DNA from: a virus
DNA length: 25,772 nt
Direction: 5' to 3' (one strand)
IMG/VR virus record: IMGVR_UViG_3300042455_001217
Coordinates: 1 to 25,772 of that record
A program made the translations under genes and the position numbers. The notes beneath the pieces are model-generated. The model was given only the letters and a program-made list of their open reading frames with translations. It ran no database searches and was not told where the DNA came from. Below are positions 6,459 through 23,166 of the stretch, piece by piece; the stretch's first letter is position 1, and each line of letters starts with the position of its first letter.

Positions 6459-7670
6459 ATGGAAAAGAACCTACAAGAACTTCTTGAGAGTGAAGTCCTG
6501 GGCGAGGAAACTCGCACAGCACTACAAGAAGCATTTGCCCAAAAGCTCAAGGAAGCAGAGCACAAGCTGGAAGAAAGCTATGCTGTGCGTTTTGAGCATG
6601 AAAGAGCAGTTCTTGTGGAAACCATGGACACAATGTTGAACAATGTCATCCGCAAAGAACTAGATGAATTTGCCGAAGACAAACGTTCAGTTGCTGCACA
6701 AAAAGTCAAATTGGCAGAAGCCAACAGACGTGCTCGCAAAGTTTACGAACAAAAGCTGGCCAAGAATGTACAAGTCTTGGAAAATTTCATGCTCAAGCAA
6801 ATTGCTGGTGAAATAACTGAGTTCAGAGACGACCGCAAGCAGTTGGCAGAACAACGTGTCCAAATGGCCCAAGAACTTAATGAAAGCCGTGCAACAGCAC
6901 AACAGGCATTTCAAGATAAAATCACAAAGCTGGAAAATTTTGTGCTCAAGCAATTGAGTGAAGAAATTTCTGAATTTGTTGCTGACAAGCAAGCACTGGT
7001 AGAACAGCGTGTGAAGTTGGCTGCTCAAGCCAAGGCAAAGTTGGATGAAACACGCCAGAACTTTGTAAACAGAGCAACAGCAGTTGTTGACAAGACCCTG
7101 AACGAAGTAATTCGCAAGCAGTTGGTAGAATGGAAAGATGATATCAAAATTGCTCGTGAAAACAACTTTGGTCGTAAAATCTTTGAATCAGTGGCAGCTG
7201 AATACATGAGCTCATATTTGAGTGAAGGTACCACCACCAAGAAACTGCAAAAACAATTGCAAGAGATAACTCAACAATTGCAAGAGGCTCAAACCCATCT
7301 ACAACAAACCACTGTCTTGGTGGAGAGTGAAAGAAGGGCTGCAACTATTGCTCGCGAGCGTACTCAGAGAGTGGAAGTTCTCAACGAACTACTCAGTCCC
7401 CTGAGAGGCGACAAGCGTGCAGTGATGGAAAATCTTTTGACTGATGTCAAAACCACCAATCTCAAGGAAGCTTTCCATCGCTATATGCCCAGTGTGCTCA
7501 ACAATCAAGCACCAGCCCCTAAAAAGGCATCCAATGCTGGATCCACACGCACAGTGGCACACTCCGGAGACCGAGTCAGTCTTGTGGAGCAACAGACACC
7601 CAAAATTGAAGATGATCAAGATCTTCAAAACATTTTGTATTTGGCAGGCATGACTGCCAAAGCACACTAA
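6459..7670 (+). CDS. 22: Prohead core scaffold protein gp22 with internal repeats
   Basis: A 403-residue scaffold protein that forms the core around which gp23 assembles. It is later degraded by gp21. It is almost all alpha-helix/coiled coil, and very rich in Gln, Glu, Lys and Ala. Four related units spaced about 51 residues apart are visible: starting near residue 60 (LNNVIRKELDEFAEDK), 109 (NFMLKQIAGEITEFRDD), 160 (NFVLKQLSEEISEFVADK) and 213 (TLNEVIRKQLVEWKDD). The first three are followed by an (E/A)QxVxxA(E/A/Q) segment. A Gln-rich coiled coil follows (residues 260-300), then a conserved segment containing LLSPLRGDKRAVMENLL, and a disordered C-terminus. AAGGAG precedes the ATG. It is longer than T4 gp22 (about 270), largely because of the repeats. 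Confidence 0.9.
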   Translation: MEKNLQELLESEVLGEETRTALQEAFAQKLKEAEHKLEESYAVRFEHERAVLVETMDTMLNNVIRKELDEFAEDKRSVAAQKVKLAEANRRARKVYEQKLAKNVQVLENFMLKQIAGEITEFRDDRKQLAEQRVQMAQELNESRATAQQAFQDKITKLENFVLKQLSEEISEFVADKQALVEQRVKLAAQAKAKLDETRQNFVNRATAVVDKTLNEVIRKQLVEWKDDIKIARENNFGRKIFESVAAEYMSSYLSEGTTTKKLQKQLQEITQQLQEAQTHLQQTTVLVESERRAATIARERTQRVEVLNELLSPLRGDKRAVMENLLTDVKTTNLKEAFHRYMPSVLNNQAPAPKKASNAGSTRTVAHSGDRVSLVEQQTPKIEDDQDLQNILYLAGMTAKAH

Positions 7671-17108: not shown

Positions 17109-18116
17109 ATGAAATTGAAAAATACGATTTTGGCTGGACTCTTGGTGATAGCCACTTTGCCAGCACAGGCTCAAAGTATAGTAGGGGCTGGAGCAACTTT
17201 TCCCAACCCTTTGTATCAAAAATGGAGCATATTGGCAAAACCATCAGGTATAGATCTCAACTATCAGAGTATGGGGTCAGGTGCTGGTCAGAATCAGATC
17301 AAAAATAGAACTGTGGATTTTGGTGCAAGTGATGCACCTCTCAAGCAGGAAGATTTAACCAAGAACAATCTATTGCAGTTTCCCACAGTGATCGGCAGTT
17401 TAGTCATGGCAATCAACGTGCCTGGCATCAAAAACGATCAATTGAGACTCACTGGATCAATAGTTGCAGACATTTATTTGGGTAAAATCAAACGCTGGGA
17501 CGACCCTTTAATCCAAGCTATCAATCCTGGTATAAATCTGCCCAATCTACTAATAAGCCCCATTTATAGAGCAGATGGCAGTGGCACAACTTATGTTTAC
17601 ACCAGGTATCTTAATAATGTAAGCAAGGAGTGGCAAGAAAAAGTGGGGTCAGCAACTAGTGTCAAGTGGCCCACTGGTAGTGGTGCCAAGGGCAATGACG
17701 GAGTTAGTGCCAGCATCAAACAAGCTCCTGGTAGCATTGGATATGTGGAATTTGCATATGCCAAAATGGGAAATCTTGTTACCACACAGATGCAAAACAA
17801 AGACGGCAATTTTGTCCCCGCATCTGCGGAGAACTTCAGACAGGCGGCCCGTAATGCCAATTGGAATGTTCCAGGTATGGCTCCAGATCTCATCAACCAG
17901 CCAGGTAATACAAGTTGGCCAATTGTGAGTCCCACATTTGTGCTTGTGCCCTTGGATCCCAAAAATCCCATCAAGTCACAGACTGTGTTGAGATTTTTTG
18001 ACTGGGCAATGACACATGGTGATGCGGCTGCCCAAGAGCTGGACTATGTGCCCCTCCCACAGGAAGTCAAAGATTTGGTTAGACACACCTGGAAAGCCCG
18101 GGGTTTGGCCAACTAG
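17109..18116 (+). CDS. pstS: Periplasmic phosphate-binding protein PstS (phage auxiliary gene)
   Basis: A 335-residue phosphate-binding component of the host Pst ABC transporter. Residues 1-21 form a Sec signal peptide (two lysines, LAGLLVIATL core, cleavage after AQA). Phosphate-contacting segments are all present: GAGATFP (26-32), GSGAGQNQ, DFGASDAPL, and RADGSGTTY. Other family blocks are QFPTVIGSLV, YLGKIKRWDD, GSGAKGNDG, GSIGYVEFAYA and the end FFDWAM. The similarity to proteobacterial PstS is high. Cyanophages and pelagiphages carry pstS, which raises phosphate uptake during infection. GGAG sits 7 nt before the ATG. The gene is divergent from gp14. No convincing Pho box could be found, so its control by host PhoB is open. 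Confidence 0.95.
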   Translation: MKLKNTILAGLLVIATLPAQAQSIVGAGATFPNPLYQKWSILAKPSGIDLNYQSMGSGAGQNQIKNRTVDFGASDAPLKQEDLTKNNLLQFPTVIGSLVMAINVPGIKNDQLRLTGSIVADIYLGKIKRWDDPLIQAINPGINLPNLLISPIYRADGSGTTYVYTRYLNNVSKEWQEKVGSATSVKWPTGSGAKGNDGVSASIKQAPGSIGYVEFAYAKMGNLVTTQMQNKDGNFVPASAENFRQAARNANWNVPGMAPDLINQPGNTSWPIVSPTFVLVPLDPKNPIKSQTVLRFFDWAMTHGDAAAQELDYVPLPQEVKDLVRHTWKARGLAN

Positions 18117-18600: not shown

Positions 18601-18628
18601 TTGACACACACCCTAGATGTGCTACTAT
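18601..18628 (+). promoter_or_regulatory. Early promoter P1 (sigma70 type)
   Basis: TTGACA (18601-18606), 16 nt, TACTAT (18623-18628), with TGC directly before and GGGC after the -10 box. A start 6-7 nt later coincides with the ATG at 18635. Confidence 0.7.
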
Positions 18629-18634
18629 GGGCTC

Positions 18635-18973
18635 ATGAACAAGCCCACCCGCAAGAAGCGCAGCGACCGCAATCATGTGCTCTACAAGGCCACCGCACCC
18701 AACGGTGACTGCTATGTGGGGCTCACGGTTTGTGATCTCAGCCCCACCAAAAGTGTGCGTCGTCGCTGGATGAAGCACGTAAATCGTGCCTTGAACGACG
18801 GCAAGGATTGGGCACTGTGTGAGGCTATTCGCACCCTGGGTGCTGAGGGCTGGAAGCTGCAAGTGCTTGAGAAAGTTAGGGGAAAGGCTGCTGCCCATGC
18901 TAGGGAAGTTGAGCTGATAGCTCTGCTCAAGCCCTGCCTCAACACTGCCAAAACAGGCAAAAATAAGGGTTGA
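18635..18973 (+). CDS. Small GIY-YIG nuclease-family protein
   Basis: A 112-residue protein with the GIY-YIG layout. The first motif strand is HVLYKATAP (residues 14-22, 'GIY' position), the second is CYVGL (26-30, 'YIG' position). Then RRRW with the catalytic-type Arg (42-45), a helix, a strand WKLQVLEKV, the helix REVELIALL with the catalytic-type Glu (E91 or E93), and the final Asn in CLNTAKTG (N103). It lacks an extra DNA-binding domain, so it is the bare nuclease core. An upstream in-frame ATG at 18617 lies inside the promoter spacer and would not be transcribed from P1, hence the start at 18635, which would give a leaderless mRNA. Its role (homing, host DNA breakdown or repair) is open. 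Confidence 0.72.
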   Translation: MNKPTRKKRSDRNHVLYKATAPNGDCYVGLTVCDLSPTKSVRRRWMKHVNRALNDGKDWALCEAIRTLGAEGWKLQVLEKVRGKAAAHAREVELIALLKPCLNTAKTGKNKG

Positions 18974-18998
18974 CACGCCCCTGAGTTTATGCTAAATT
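18970..18998 (+). promoter_or_regulatory. Early promoter P2 (sigma70 type)
   Basis: TTGACA (18970-18975), 17 nt, TAAATT (18993-18998), with TGC before and GGGC after the -10 box. It overlaps the end of the GIY-YIG gene. Confidence 0.75.
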
Positions 18999-19022
18999 GG
19001 GCTCTTACATGGAGATCACACA

Positions 19023-19208
19023 ATGATTTACAAAACCTTGCTGCTGAATTTTCACCAGATCAAGTATGAGGGCACCAGCCTCAAACAAGCCAAGGCTGAG
19101 GCTATCAGGGCTGGGTTTGAGAGCGTGATCTATCAGGATGAGCAGCCCATTCTCAGCTACAGCCCTGTGGGCGGTTGGCGTGGGTTATCAATGTCATCAA
19201 TGGGTTAG
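19023..19208 (+). CDS. Small early protein, 61 aa
   Basis: A 61-residue protein of unknown function (MIYKTLLLNFHQIKYEG...). The centre has an amphipathic helix SLKQAKAEAIRAGFESV and then a strand-like QPILSYSPVGGW. GGAG at 19011-19014 is 8 nt before the ATG, and P2 lies 25 nt upstream. This promoter-ribosome binding site-ORF order supports a real gene. Confidence 0.65.
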   Translation: MIYKTLLLNFHQIKYEGTSLKQAKAEAIRAGFESVIYQDEQPILSYSPVGGWRGLSMSSMG

Positions 19209-19216
19209 CGTTCCAA

Positions 19217-19315
19217 CAAAATCAACAGGTTAGCTTCAAGAGCCCCATTCTCGTGGGGTTCGTGAAGATCCCTAGTGCTAGGATACTCTTGCCCAGCTGA
19301 GATTTTTTTGGATCC
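19217..19315 (+). terminator. Candidate termination region
   Basis: Short hairpins CCCCA-TTCTCG-TGGGG (near 19237-19252) and CCTAG-TG-CTAGG precede an uninterrupted T run at about 19303-19310. The stem next to the T-run is weak, so the call is tentative. Confidence 0.35.
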
Positions 19316-19328
19316 TGTCTGATTTTGG

Positions 19329-19356
19329 TTGACCAGAAGTCTGAACGTGCTATTAT
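19329..19356 (+). promoter_or_regulatory. Early promoter P3 (sigma70 type)
   Basis: TTGACC (19329-19334), 16 nt, TATTAT (19351-19356), with TGC before and GGC after the -10 box. Confidence 0.75.
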
Positions 19357-19382
19357 GGCATCACTGACAGAGAGTGGTGAAC

Positions 19383-19520
19383 ATGGCCAAGATCAACAAA
19401 TGCGATAAAGCCCGGATGGTGCTGTCGTGGATGGACAGCATGGACGAGCAGGGCCAGTTCACCAAGACCTGGGAGCAGGTGGTTGCTGAAGCCAAGGCTG
19501 CGCCCAAGAAGAAAAAATAA
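19383..19520 (+). CDS. Small early protein with lysine tail, 45 aa
   Basis: A 45-residue protein, MAKINKCDKARMVLSWMDSM at the start and PKKKK at the end. Trp, Met and acidic residues form an amphipathic middle. It lies 27 nt after P3, with only a weak purine-rich ribosome binding site (GAGAGTGGTG). It shares its MAK start and basic end with the next gene and may be a DNA- or polymerase-binding early peptide, but nothing proves this. Confidence 0.6.
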   Translation: MAKINKCDKARMVLSWMDSMDEQGQFTKTWEQVVAEAKAAPKKKK

Positions 19521-19539
19521 GATTCCCAGATTTTTTTGG

Positions 19540-19568
19540 TTGACAGATACCCTGGCCCCTGCTATAGT
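19540..19568 (+). promoter_or_regulatory. Early promoter P4 (sigma70 type)
   Basis: TTGACA (19540-19545), 17 nt, TATAGT (19563-19568), with TGC before and GGCC after the -10 box. A T-run just upstream (19531-19537) may end the previous transcript. Confidence 0.8.
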
Positions 19569-19597
19569 GGCCACATAGAAGCAAGGAGCACTAGACC

Positions 19598-20611
19598 ATG
19601 GCCAAGGTTACTGGCGTTGATCGTAAGCTGACTGAGATCCTCAACGGGGCCAGCAAGCCCAATTTTGCTCTGCTCAACTGCAACAGCGACAACTTCCAGA
19701 GCGATTATGGTCGTGCCCTGGACTGGATCCACCACAGTGTGGAAGATGATGAACTGGTGCGTGAGCTGATCACCTACCTGCAGTTCAGCAACCGCGCTGA
19801 TGATGTGGCGCTGGTGAAGATGCTGGATGGCGTGCAGACCAAGCTTCTGGGCAGCATCGCCTACTGCATCAACCGTGGTGCTGAACTGGCGCCCAAGAGC
19901 CTGCTGCGCATCACCAACACCCTGCAGGAAGCTCGCAACAAGGTTGTGGATGCTCCGGTTGCTGAGGGCTTTGAAGATCTGCCCGAAACTGCCAACAGCC
20001 GCAACATGGAGGCCTACAAGAGCTGCTACAGCCGCCTGGACAACCTGCGTGCCCTGGTGTGCAACGGCAAGCTGGCGCTCAAGGATGTGCATGACGAAGC
20101 CATGAAGATCCTGGAAGCGCATGGCGGCCTCAAGGCCAACATCCGCCGCAAGCTGGTGGACCACTACACGCAGAGCGTGGAAGAGGCGCAGGAAGACAAG
20201 GTGATCAAGACCTGGGTCAAGCCTCTGCAAGCGATCCTCAAGGCTGTGGGTGGTGTGGTCAAGGCTGACAAGGCCAAGAAGACTGCCAAGGCTGTGCCTG
20301 CTGTCAAGGCTGACAAGCCTGTGAAGGCCCCCAAGGTTGCCAAGCCTGTCAAGGGCAAGACTGTGAAGGCCACCAAGGTTGCCAAGAACACCAAGCCCGC
20401 CAAGGGCAAGGCCACCAAGACTGTCACCATCAAGCCCAAGCGCGATGCTGGTGTGCCCAGCGTGGCCAGCCAGGTGCGTGACCTGATCCGTGTGAACAAG
20501 AACAGCACGGACGAGCTGGGCATGGTGGAGATCGTGGTGCGTGAGCTGGGGCTCACCTCGCAGCGGGGCAAGAGCGTGGTGAAGGCATTCTGGGGCAATG
20601 TGAAGGCGTAA
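19598..20611 (+). CDS. Early protein with histone-H1-like Lys/Ala tail
   Basis: A 337-residue protein in three parts. Residues 1-~220 form a mostly helical domain that I do not recognise (for example DWIHHSVEDDELVRELITYL and SLLRITNTLQEARNKVV). Residues ~220-282 are a Lys/Ala/Pro/Val-rich stretch of repeats (KAPKVAKPVKGKTVKATKVA), as in histone H1 and bacterial H1-like proteins, and should bind nucleic acid without sequence preference. Residues 287-337 form a small conserved-looking helical domain (SQVRDLIRVNKNS, then RELGLTSQRGKSVVKAF). AAGGAG at 19583-19588 precedes the ATG and P4 is just upstream. Possible roles are host nucleoid takeover or DNA protection. The codon use is richer in G/C than in the late genes. 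Confidence 0.75.
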   Translation: MAKVTGVDRKLTEILNGASKPNFALLNCNSDNFQSDYGRALDWIHHSVEDDELVRELITYLQFSNRADDVALVKMLDGVQTKLLGSIAYCINRGAELAPKSLLRITNTLQEARNKVVDAPVAEGFEDLPETANSRNMEAYKSCYSRLDNLRALVCNGKLALKDVHDEAMKILEAHGGLKANIRRKLVDHYTQSVEEAQEDKVIKTWVKPLQAILKAVGGVVKADKAKKTAKAVPAVKADKPVKAPKVAKPVKGKTVKATKVAKNTKPAKGKATKTVTIKPKRDAGVPSVASQVRDLIRVNKNSTDELGMVEIVVRELGLTSQRGKSVVKAFWGNVKA

Positions 20612-20717
20612 GCCTTCACCACTCCCTGCACACTCCGTACAACACAAGCTCAAAATCTGGAATCTCTCTCAAGTGCTCTCCGCCTCAAACAACTCGATTA
20701 CCGTAAAGAGGGCCGCC

Positions 20718-20753
20718 ATGACGACTCAGACCACACAAGCGGCCAGCATCTAA
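20718..20753 (+). CDS. Possible leader peptide before the Gp88-like gene
   Basis: A tiny frame, MTTQTTQAASI, has a good ribosome binding site (AAAGAGGG) and ends 11 nt before the ATG of the next gene. No promoter of the P1-P6 type precedes it. It may be a translational leader or chance. Confidence 0.3.
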   Translation: MTTQTTQAASI

Positions 20754-20764
20754 GAGGTTGATAC

Positions 20765-21436
20765 ATGACACTCCTCACCACCAACAATACGAAGCTCCTC
20801 AAGGGTAACGGACGGGGCTACATGAGCTTCGTGCTGCACCTCTCCCCGGCTGACAGCTCGGGCACCGAGGTGTGCCCCAAGCGCTCGCCGGGCTGCACCG
20901 CCGCATGCCTGAACACCGCCGGCCGCGGCATGATGCACAGGGTGCAGGCGGGCCGGCTGCGCAAGACGCGGCTGTACCTCGAGGACCGCGAGGGCTTCAT
21001 GGACCAGCTGGTCTGGGACATCAAGGCCAGCATCCGCCGGGCGGAACGGAACGATGCCATCCCCTGCTTCCGCCTCAACGGAACGAGCGATGTGCCATGG
21101 GAGCGGGTTCGCATCGGAGGCAAGAATGTGTTTCAGCTCTTCCCCGACGTCCAGTTCTACGACTATTCGAAGCTCCATAACCGCAAGGTAGGCCAATACA
21201 AGAACTACCACCTCACGTTCAGCCGGAGCGAGAACAATGACAAGGACGTGGCTAAGGCCATCGCTGCCGGAATGAACGTGGCGGTAGTCTTTCGAGAACT
21301 CCCGGAGACCTACATGGGCCTTCCGGTCATCTCCGGAGACGAGGACGACCTGCGCTTCCTGGATCCGCCCAACCACATCGTGGGCCTCAAGACCAAGGGG
21401 CGGGCACGCAAGGACGCGTCGGGCTTCGTGGTGTGA
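20765..21436 (+). CDS. Gp88-like phage protein with Cys cluster
   Basis: A 223-residue protein of the phage Gp88 / DUF7227-type family, whose function is not established. The hallmark is the cysteine cluster EVCPKRSPGCTAACLNTAG with C37, C44 and C48, which could bind a metal or an iron-sulfur centre. Further family-typical blocks are CFRLNGTSDVPWE (101-113), QFYDYSKLHNR (130-140) and a Gly/Lys end DPPNHIVGLKTKGRARKD. AAGAGG precedes the ATG. The gene is markedly GC-rich with G/C-ending codons, unlike the late genes, and probably arrived from another genome. The family name is from memory of the motif. Confidence 0.65.
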   Translation: MTLLTTNNTKLLKGNGRGYMSFVLHLSPADSSGTEVCPKRSPGCTAACLNTAGRGMMHRVQAGRLRKTRLYLEDREGFMDQLVWDIKASIRRAERNDAIPCFRLNGTSDVPWERVRIGGKNVFQLFPDVQFYDYSKLHNRKVGQYKNYHLTFSRSENNDKDVAKAIAAGMNVAVVFRELPETYMGLPVISGDEDDLRFLDPPNHIVGLKTKGRARKDASGFVV

Positions 21437-21443
21437 TCTTCGG

Positions 21444-21471
21444 TTGACGCTGTTCGCATCCATGCTATAAT
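21444..21471 (+). promoter_or_regulatory. Early promoter P5 (sigma70 type)
   Basis: TTGACG (21444-21449), 16 nt, consensus TATAAT (21466-21471), with TGC before and GGCC after the -10 box. Confidence 0.82.
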
Positions 21472-21492
21472 GGCCCTGCAAGCAAGGAGCTG

Positions 21493-21555
21493 ACGCGGCT
21501 CCTCGAGGACGAGAATCTAGAGGGCTGGGACTTCTACTACCACTCCAGCTGGTAA
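21493..21555 (+). pseudogene. Short ORF behind P5 without a normal start codon
   Basis: A frame ending LLEDENLEGWDFYYHSSW follows the ribosome binding site AAGGAG (21484-21489), but the codon at the start position is ACG. Either ACG is used, or the original ATG was lost, or this is the end of a deleted gene. The leader CCCTGCAAGCA-GGAG is shared with P6. Confidence 0.35.
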
Positions 21556-21570
21556 GGAAAGGAGACAGGC

Positions 21571-21726
21571 ATGGAAGACACGGAAAACAATATGGAGACC
21601 AATGTGATGGACTTCGCCGAATGGAACGAGCGGCTGCGCAAGCAGCGTGCCCTCGAGGAGGCCCAAAAGGCCGCCTTGGACGAGGAGCGGAGGATGAACC
21701 TGCTGTTGCGGGAGTTCCGCTGCTGA
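21571..21726 (+). CDS. Small early protein, 51 aa
   Basis: A 51-residue charged protein (MEDTENNMETNVMDFAEWNE, then RLRKQRALEEAQKAALDEER). It is predicted to be a single long helix/coiled coil and ends LLLREFRC. A strong ribosome binding site (GGAAAGGAG) precedes the ATG, and it is downstream of P5. Function unknown. Confidence 0.65.
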   Translation: MEDTENNMETNVMDFAEWNERLRKQRALEEAQKAALDEERRMNLLLREFRC

Positions 21727-21733
21727 TCCGGTG

Positions 21734-21762
21734 TTGACAGGGCAGGGGCGGCATGCTATGTT
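21734..21762 (+). promoter_or_regulatory. Early promoter P6 (sigma70 type)
   Basis: TTGACA (21734-21739), 17 nt, TATGTT (21757-21762), with TGC before and GCCC after the -10 box. Confidence 0.75.
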
Positions 21763-21786
21763 GCCCCTGCAAGCACGGAGAAGCAA

Positions 21787-21966
21787 ATGGATCGCAAGGC
21801 GCTGCTGCTGAAGCTGGTGGACCAACTCGGTGAGGCCCTGTACCTCATGGAGACCACCGAGGCCAAGCCCGACGATGGCGACGAGGTCTGGTTCGCCATC
21901 AACGAGGCCCACAGCGTGGCCGAGACCAAGCTCAACGAGATCCTCTTCGCGGAGATGAACAAGTGA
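21787..21966 (+). CDS. Small early protein, 59 aa
   Basis: A 59-residue acidic helical protein (MDRKALLLKLVDQLGEALYL ... AHSVAETKLNEILFAEMNK). It follows P6, with CGGAG 6 nt before the ATG. Its stop overlaps the GTG start of the next gene (GTGA), so the two are translationally coupled. Function unknown. Confidence 0.65.
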   Translation: MDRKALLLKLVDQLGEALYLMETTEAKPDDGDEVWFAINEAHSVAETKLNEILFAEMNK

Positions 21967-22184
21967 TCGAGATCAGGGTTCCCGAGGGCGAGAACGCCAG
22001 CATCGCCATCGCTGGCTACACCTTCCTCATCAGCAAGCAGGATGGGCAGGTCATCGTCGATCGATGGATCGACGGGCAGCACCACGGGATCGAGCTTGAT
22101 CCCGTGGTGCATGCCAAGCCCTGGCCGCGCTTTGACGACGTACCGCTCAACCGCAACCTCACCGAGCTGCGGCCCTGGCGCTGA
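21963..22184 (+). CDS. Small early protein, 73 aa, GTG start
   Basis: A 73-residue protein (IEIRVPEGENASIAIAGYTF ..., ending NLTELRPWR) of mainly beta-type pattern. The start is the GTG that overlaps the preceding TGA. A 13-bp perfect inverted repeat lies inside the coding region. It is the last GC-rich gene before the composition changes at about 22220. Function unknown. Confidence 0.6.
   Translation: MIEIRVPEGENASIAIAGYTFLISKQDGQVIVDRWIDGQHHGIELDPVVHAKPWPRFDDVPLNRNLTELRPWR
22079..22110. repeat. 13-bp perfect inverted repeat inside a gene
   Basis: GCACCACGGGATC (22079-22091) pairs with GATCCCGTGGTGC (22098-22110) around a 6-nt loop. It encodes part of the 73-aa protein. It may be a site or an mRNA hairpin. 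Confidence 0.6.
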
Positions 22185-22380: not shown

Positions 22381-22404
22381 CCTGGAAACTATCCAGGTAT
22401 GAAC

Positions 22405-23166
22405 ATGAGCGGAATATTAACTCCCAAACAAGAAATCATAAACGATGTTGGCCGTCTTTTGGGCAATTCAATGATTGATGTGGAATTGGAACCAGGTGAT
22501 TTTGACCTGGCTGTGAAAATTTCATTGGAACGTTATCGTCAACGCAGCTCAAATGCAGTGGAAGAAGCCTACGCTTTCTTACAACTGATGCCCAATCAAA
22601 CTGAATACTATCTGCCTCAGGAGATCGTAGATGTACGTCAGATTTTCCGCAGAGGCTTGGGTGGCACAACTGGTGGCACATACATTGACCCCTTCAGCCT
22701 AGCCTACACCAACTTGTATCTACTGCAAGCTGGTGCTGGTGGTGGTTACACAGCCGGACTCTTGACCTTTGAACTGTTCTACCAATATCAGGAACAAGCT
22801 GGTCGTATGTTTGGTAGAGACATCAACTACAACTGGAACGTGGTGAGCAAAAAACTCACCATCATGAGAATGATCCTGGGTGAAGAAACAGTGTTGGTGT
22901 GGGTCACCAAGGTGAAACCCGACGACATGATCCTGGAAGATCCTTTTGCCAAACCCTGGATCCGCAGCTACACCCTGGCTGTGTGCAAGCAGATTCTGGG
23001 AGAAAGCTACAGTAAATTTGGACAAATAATTGGACCGCAAGGTGGCACCACCATGAAAGGCCCCGAATTAAAATCTGAAGCATTAGCTGAAATAGAAAAG
23101 TTGGAAACAGAACTGTTGCAGTATGTGGACAACGGCACACCCAACAGCTTTGTGATCCTGGGCTGA
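22405..23166 (+). CDS. 13: Neck (head completion) protein gp13
   Basis: A 253-residue head completion protein that closes the portal vertex after packaging and prepares the head for the tail. Family-typical blocks are MSGILTPKQEIINDVGRLLG at the N-terminus, IMRMILGEETVLVWV, PWIRSYTLAVCKQILGESYS and the C-terminal GPELKSEALAEIEKLETEL. It is somewhat shorter than T4 gp13 (309). ATG 22405 is preferred because AGG lies 6-8 nt upstream. ATG 22399 (two residues longer) lies within the hairpin arm and is possible. gp14 and gp15 are on the opposite strand more than 5 kb away. Confidence 0.85.
   Translation: MSGILTPKQEIINDVGRLLGNSMIDVELEPGDFDLAVKISLERYRQRSSNAVEEAYAFLQLMPNQTEYYLPQEIVDVRQIFRRGLGGTTGGTYIDPFSLAYTNLYLLQAGAGGGYTAGLLTFELFYQYQEQAGRMFGRDINYNWNVVSKKLTIMRMILGEETVLVWVTKVKPDDMILEDPFAKPWIRSYTLAVCKQILGESYSKFGQIIGPQGGTTMKGPELKSEALAEIEKLETELLQYVDNGTPNSFVILG

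Follow-up and report, generated by a model that had tools for sequence, protein, structure and literature searches.

The PeSLs (early-promoter stem-loop elements) of RB49/phi1-type phages are reportedly repeated sigma70 early promoters in plastic regions of small genes, which are gained and lost unit by unit. The early promoters of phage T4 have a UP/-35/TGn/-10 architecture (PMC2988021), and the host takeover module of phage SPO1 comprises 26 genes in operons within a 12.4-kb terminal region (PMC6873191). Here we analysed six promoter-like sites, P1 to P6, on a 25,772-base stretch of viral DNA, IMG/VR record IMGVR_UViG_3300042455_001217 (the window; motif counts for its own phage cover these bases only). 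We consider it highly likely (a probability of about 0.87) that the host's primary sigma factor recognizes the six sites as promoters with combined -35 and extended -10 elements, that each starts a short transcript, that together they are a sample of a phage-wide family, and that the island in which they stand was pieced together.

The window is part of the genome of a T4-like jumbo phage. Its capsid protein shares 94% identity with that of a 27.7-kb contig, G001, and 89% with that of a 452.8-kb relative, G002, while the nearest cultivated capsid, from Sinorhizobium phage Phosso (469 kb), is 78% identical. The sites resemble T4 early promoters (PMC2988021) in their predicted dependence on host sigma70, in the succession of -35, TGn and -10 elements, in their many copies and in the small, putatively early genes behind them. 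In T4, however, the third base of TGn is free and the -35 box is usually TTTAC in the matches, whereas here TGC is near-fixed, the -35 box is TTGAC(A/G) and about one promoter per gene is found over 33 kb of G002. The SPO1 module (PMC6873191) is likewise compact and made up mostly of small early genes under strong promoters, but here there is nearly one promoter per gene.

Six sigma70-type sites on one strand of the window

The six sites begin at 18601, 18970, 19329, 19540, 21444 and 21734, exactly where an earlier note on this DNA had placed them, and each carries TTGAC(A/C/G), a TGC immediately 5′ of the -10 box and a TANNNT hexamer, as the note had described. From P1 to P6, the spacers measure 16, 17, 16, 17, 16 and 17 nt, and the discriminators begin with GGG, GGG, GGC, GGC, GGC and GCC. 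The pattern TTGACN{14,15}TGCTANNNT matched the window six times, all on the + strand between 18.6 and 21.8 kb and all at the named sites; elsewhere in the window no further match was found on either strand. By comparison, 100 dinucleotide-preserving shuffles of the window gave a mean of 0.02 matches and never more than one. These numbers, together with orthologs at the same places in relatives (see below), rule out a chance resemblance within a GC-rich stretch; only the short length of the motif speaks for it, and its probability is practically nil.

As the note had proposed, a position weight matrix was built from the six sites; run within the window in leave-one-out fashion, it ranked every held-out site (17.8-21.7 bits) above all other positions on both strands (at most 16.1 bits). 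The density check in late regions, also proposed there, agreed: within the window, the 22 kb of mainly structural genes outside the island hold no site. In a generic sigma70 scan of 8.9-25.8 kb, the ten best-ranked sites included all of P1 to P6, each with TG 5′ of the -10 box. A TTGACA-like -35 box, a spacer of 16-18 nt, TG at -15/-14 and TANNNT, the hallmarks of the -35/TGn/-10 class, are present in six of six sites. No clear UP element was seen at P5 and P6, and in the G002 promoters A/T-richness is confined to a short patch about 4-8 nt 5′ of the -35 box. The promoters and genes of the island are listed below.

18601-18628, + strand: P1, TTGACA-N16(..TGC)-TACTAT; ATG of the GIY-YIG gene 6 nt downstream
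18635-18973, + strand: gene for a GIY-YIG family nuclease, 112 aa, predicted leaderless; TGA stop within the -35 box of P2
18970-18998, + strand: P2, TTGACA-N17(..TGC)-TAAATT; orthologous promoter TTGACA..TGTTATAGT at 6540 of G001 (locus L217), before a homologous gene
19023-19208, + strand: 61-aa gene of P2, ATG 24 nt past the -10; L217 homolog in the same position, 55% aa identity
19329-19356, + strand: P3, TTGACC-N16(..TGC)-TATTAT; cassette missing from G001
19383-19520, + strand: 45-aa open reading frame (ORF) of P3, read from the sequence; ATG 26 nt past the -10
19540-19568, + strand: P4, TTGACA-N17(..TGC)-TATAGT, leader GGCCACATAGAAGCAAGGAGC; orthologous promoter at L217 6825
19598-20611, + strand: 337-aa gene of P4; 48% aa homolog at the same L217 locus
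20765-21436, + strand: GP88-family gene (PF17338), first of the GC-rich segment; Pfam E=4e-44; 75% aa ortholog in the G002 early array
21444-21471, + strand: P5, TTGACG-N16(..TGC)-TATAAT, leader GGCCCTGCAAGCAAGGAG; G002 ortholog at 34083, directly after GP88
21489-21554, + strand: 21-codon ORF behind P5, with AAGGAG and without ATG, GTG or TTG
21571-21726, + strand: 51-aa gene (ORF) between P5 and P6; no relatives found in the profile and relative-genome comparisons
21734-21762, + strand: P6, TTGACA-N17(..TGC)-TATGTT, leader GCCCCTGCAAGCACGGAG
21742-21770, + strand: perfect 8-bp inverted repeat around the P6 -10 box, arms GCAGGGGC (21742-21749) and GCCCCTGC (21763-21770)
21787-21966, + strand: 59-aa gene of P6, ATG 24 nt past the -10; 70% aa ortholog in the G002 array (33869-33711)
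21963-22184, + strand: 73-aa gene (ORF), second behind P6
22225-22377, + strand: methyltransferase-like C-terminal stump at the right-hand boundary of the putatively replaced segment; matches the end of an intact L217 ORF (12507-12647) at 68% aa identity

Each site had been said to stand before one or two tiny genes. Small genes do follow most of them, but P4 precedes a 337-aa gene, whose product had no match in the collection of cultivated phages; behind P5, the first ORF lacks a standard start codon and is followed by the 51-aa ORF; and the gene of P1 had to be corrected to the 112-aa GIY-YIG gene, whose ATG falls on the predicted +1. The leader CCCTGCAAGCA is common to P5 and P6, as the note stated. 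We propose that these promoters would capture host RNA polymerase at once after infection. P2, P3, P4, P6 and, less clearly, P5 would give transcripts whose short leaders of about 17-23 nt contain a Shine-Dalgarno-like site, and would feed one or two genes each, and P1 would make a leaderless mRNA for the nuclease. In the window, the family occupies a short island inside the late structural region.

The same promoter family in relatives

In G002 the pattern matched 77 times, with 71 matches on one strand, mostly packed at 31-64 kb, while a reversed-pattern control gave 2. When the TGC condition was dropped (TTGAC-N-TANNNT), a 38-kb stretch of G002 contained 65 sites on the array strand and 2 on the other; removal of one decoy with a 15-nt spacer left the set used below, 64 promoters in 33 kb on one strand. 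TGC is present in 56 of these, and T at -15, G at -14 and C at -13 are present in 62, 61 and 59, respectively. Most have GG 5′ of TTGAC, and leaders of the form ..TGCAAGCAAGGAG are the leader noted in P5 and P6. The median distance between promoters is 463 nt, about one promoter per small gene. Usually, no more than about 10 nt separate the -35 box from the preceding stop codon, an ORF with a Shine-Dalgarno-like site follows 57 of the 64 promoters, and its ATG typically stands about 26 nt past the -10 box. These units are compact: about 8 nt separate a gene from the promoter behind it, and about 26 nt separate this promoter from the next gene. A second assembly of 170 kb (G034) repeated the array with 63 forward matches; other relatives have fewer such sites, with local clusters in some (G009, G019).

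Because a relative carries these promoters among small genes lined up on one strand over 33 kb, the pattern expected of early promoters, we read the six sites as sigma70-type promoters that are very probably early. The earlier claim of an early promoter array therefore stands as to one host-type family, on a single strand, much denser than expected by chance and not found among the window's structural genes, but its timing is something we infer from promoter type, the G002 array and the small-gene content. The early genes of jumbo phages hold most host-takeover proteins and are almost never annotated; a sharp promoter signature would flag such genes in uncultivated genomes, about 64 units in 33 kb in the case of G002.

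Six promoters of the G002 array (L206/L207; about 58.8, 57.7, 52.3, 42.0, 31.7 and 31.4 kb, minus strand) drive a repeat of about 75 nt, ATAGGGCARCGAGACACCGGGAGG..GCCGAA.., which mostly has no ORF at the usual place and no Rfam match, and which is a candidate small-RNA family. At 69412-69442 of another relative, G005, two overlapping divergent promoters make up a near-perfect palindrome (TTGACAATAGCAGAAACACTGCTACTGTCAA).

The TGC triplet, the sigma factor and the host

The note had regarded TGC as fixed and as going beyond general sigma70 conservation. TGC is found in six of six sites in the window, but the G001 ortholog of P2 has TGT, and 8 of the 64 G002 promoters depart from it. In T4, a similar pattern gave 24 matches, in which the base at -13 was A, G or T in 23 and C in only 1; therefore TGC is not general to phage sigma70 promoters, and this control rules it out as a general sigma70 property. 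The T4 comparison, with its free third base, thus bears the claim out in part, but C at -13 already belongs to alphaproteobacterial consensuses. The sigma70 consensus of Caulobacter is TTGaCgS / GCtANAWC, with C at -13 (PMC8144410), and that of S. meliloti is CTTGAC-N17-CTATAT (PMC2873474). The phage sites share with these promoters a TTGAC with a weak sixth base and a C (or GC) directly before TA; a TTGAC -35 box and a C at -13 next to TA occur in six of six sites in the window. Compared with the alphaproteobacterial promoters, the phage sites add a full TG and a near-consensus TATAAT.

The simplest reading of the TGC is an apparent adaptation to the sigma factor of the host. We infer that this host belongs to the Alphaproteobacteria, to which two proteins seem to point: the capsid (Phosso) and PstS (Acetobacteraceae). 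The latter is a phage-borne phosphate-binding protein encoded at 17109-18116 of the window, and its closest proteins come from Acetobacteraceae (54-60% aa identity). The strict TGC, unlike the TGn of T4 early promoters, could also suggest that the sites serve a phage-coded or phage-modified polymerase instead of unmodified host sigma70. We consider this very improbable, as every element is of textbook sigma70 type and the alphaproteobacterial consensuses also have C at -13.

Several observations weigh against promoters of the host sigma factor organized as a uniform family. The best sites of Phosso mostly carry TGT, not TGC, so that lineages differ. Seven candidate bacterial genomes (Roseomonas, a Baikal Acetobacteraceae metagenome-assembled genome, Pseudoroseomonas, two Asticcacaulis, Variovorax and Nitrosomonas) were nearly without full-consensus sites, too few to confirm or exclude a host. 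Moreover, GP88 has its own promoter in G002 and none in the window, so the rule of one promoter per unit is not universal.

P1 and a putatively leaderless GIY-YIG nuclease

The nuclease behind P1 matched Pfam PF01541 with E=9e-4, below the gathering cut-off, and a PHROG homing endonuclease with 2.5e-4. Of the 11 members of its family, five matched PF01541 (best 2e-7), and the GIY-YIG residues Y, YIG, R, H, E and N are all kept in the P1 protein. The family had no match in the cultivated-phage collection, nor did its profile match any solved structure. T4 endonuclease II degrades DNA; the P1 nuclease may do the same or may act in homing.

With the -10 hexamer at -12 to -7 and the ATG (18635) 6 nt past it, the A of the ATG would be +1, which predicts a leaderless mRNA whose RNA start is probably on the first codon of the nuclease gene. 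The same 6-nt arrangement is repeated in homologs from L011, L015 and L214. Across 84 sequences (the family scan plus the window, L011, L015 and L214), the ATG stands exactly 6 nt past TANNNT in 76; since copies of the window's gene recur among the 84, the 51 unique upstream regions and 7 protein clusters at 70% identity are the fairer numbers. Information across these upstream regions peaks at TTGACA, TGC, TATAAT and ATG and is low in most of the spacer, which is near-random, and in much of the 6-nt gap. Six of the eight exceptions were viewed singly: most start 24-35 nt past the -10 box, one has its ATG at 9 nt, and several carry a Shine-Dalgarno-like site.

This spacing is not exclusive to the nuclease, as 6- and 7-nt offsets are also common before other IMG/VR ORFs. 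Strong TGC promoters with an ATG 6 or 7 nt past the -10 box were frequent in the sampled IMG/VR matches (L381-L620), where the genes behind them include exonuclease-like and GIY-YIG genes and a conserved 139-aa ORF (METEDPFSVNGVLDTAAWARTGTTG). Leaderless early genes may accordingly occur widely among uncultivated phages, and the fixed promoter-to-ATG spacing of the nuclease family gives a clean prediction of leaderless translation for phages. In L011 (362-769) and L015 (4406-5001), a GIY-YIG gene immediately precedes a GP88 gene, with a separate promoter for each; in the window, the two genes lie in the same island, 1.8 kb apart.

In T4, seven free-standing endonuclease genes are reported to be promoter-less, with mostly repressive regulation (PMC2988022). 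The P1 gene shares with these seg/mob genes its place as a small free-standing nuclease gene between phage genes, and GIY-YIG proteins belong to the seg group; in contrast, the P1 family carries its own strong promoter, positioned for the predicted leaderless mRNA. We tentatively propose, with less than even confidence, that P1 and its nuclease gene form a portable cassette: the strong TGC promoter and the leaderless GIY-YIG gene would travel as a unit, so that the mobile nuclease could express itself anywhere and would seed new early promoters. Under the same proposal, the matched inverted repeats around the -10 box of many early promoters in these phages, whose arms change together, would add a second layer of control at DNA melting or in read-through RNA.

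Inverted repeats around the -10 box

The arms GCAGGGGC and GCCCCTGC of P6 form a matched inverted repeat flanking the -10 box, as in part of the G002 promoters. Exact complementary arms of 7-10 nt between spacer and leader were found in 16 of the 64 G002 promoters (about a quarter), compared with 2.4% after random re-pairing of spacers and leaders; the mean longest arm was 4.80 nt, against 3.86 (standard deviation 0.13). In fixed registers, at least 7 of 8 pairs were formed in 14 promoters, with 3.5 expected, and the fixed-register control pairing the region upstream of the -35 box with the leader gave none. A 5-bp inverted repeat at P4 is not preserved in the G001 ortholog and was taken as chance. 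A single binding protein is unlikely because the arm sequences vary between promoters; we can only speculate that the repeats act in DNA melting or in the read-through RNA. If functional, they would be an unusual promoter feature. What appears to be new here is the 6-nt spacing from P1 to the ATG, with its leaderless prediction, and the matched -10 inverted repeats in P6 and about a quarter of the G002 promoters.

An island assembled from pieces

The promoter module is flanked by PstS on one side and by a head-tail adaptor gene (22399-23166) on the other, and the GC content climbs from about 0.45 to 0.60 at 20-22 kb. Five other IMG/VR contigs are colinear with the window at 99.8-99.95% identity, several of them across the module, so an assembly chimera behind the GC jump is ruled out.

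At the same locus of G001, homologs of the 61-aa and 337-aa genes are present with a promoter in the same place before each. Between P4 and its ortholog, TTGAC, TGC-TAT and the leader GGCCACATAG are kept and the spacer has diverged. The G001 locus has neither P1 and its nuclease gene nor P3 and its ORF. Downstream, it continues with ORFs that were judged by eye, from their motifs, to be helicase-like and methyltransferase-like, and the window has the GC-rich segment instead; the stump at 22225-22377 matches the end of the methyltransferase-like ORF, which is intact in G001. In GP88, P5 (TTGACG...TCCATGCTATAATGG in both) and the P6 gene, the GC-rich segment shows synteny with the early array of G002, and the 51-aa gene and P6 have no counterpart at the syntenic G002 place. 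This comparison does not support the note's idea of a single module co-adapted across the moderate-GC and GC-rich parts, as the halves have different relatives and histories; both have the promoter because the phage lineage uses it. The island appears to have been assembled from parts of different origin: P2 and P4 as resident units, P1 (with the nuclease) and P3 as additions, and GP88, P5 and P6 as a segment related to the early array of G002. This segment probably replaced resident genes, although the exchange could also have run the other way.

Such gain and loss of units could also mean that the repeats are PeSL-like recombination cassettes, selected mainly for shuffling small genes between phages, with promoter activity secondary. 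Consistent with this, G001 lacks P1 with the nuclease as well as P3, G002 lacks the unit of the 51-aa gene and P6, a segment related to the G002 early array sits in place of other genes, and a terminator-like hairpin adjoins the promoter in L214. As in PeSLs, an early-type promoter is repeated in a plastic region in the window, G001 and G002. However, most sites in the window and G002 have no adjoining terminator stem-loop, which rules out PeSL membership at those sites: the window shows one weak + strand terminator-like match near P1 and none at P2-P6, and in G002 stop codons sit right against most promoters. The inverted repeats here also differ from PeSLs in straddling the -10 box. In addition, orthologs have diverged in the spacer but not in the sigma contacts, as expected under selection for promoter function and not for homology. 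We therefore regard a primary role in recombination as rather unlikely and retain the reading of the six sites as host-type promoters. In another phage group (L019, L029, L031, L033), GP88 is followed by a different conserved promoter, TTGACATGCAAC..GTATAAT.

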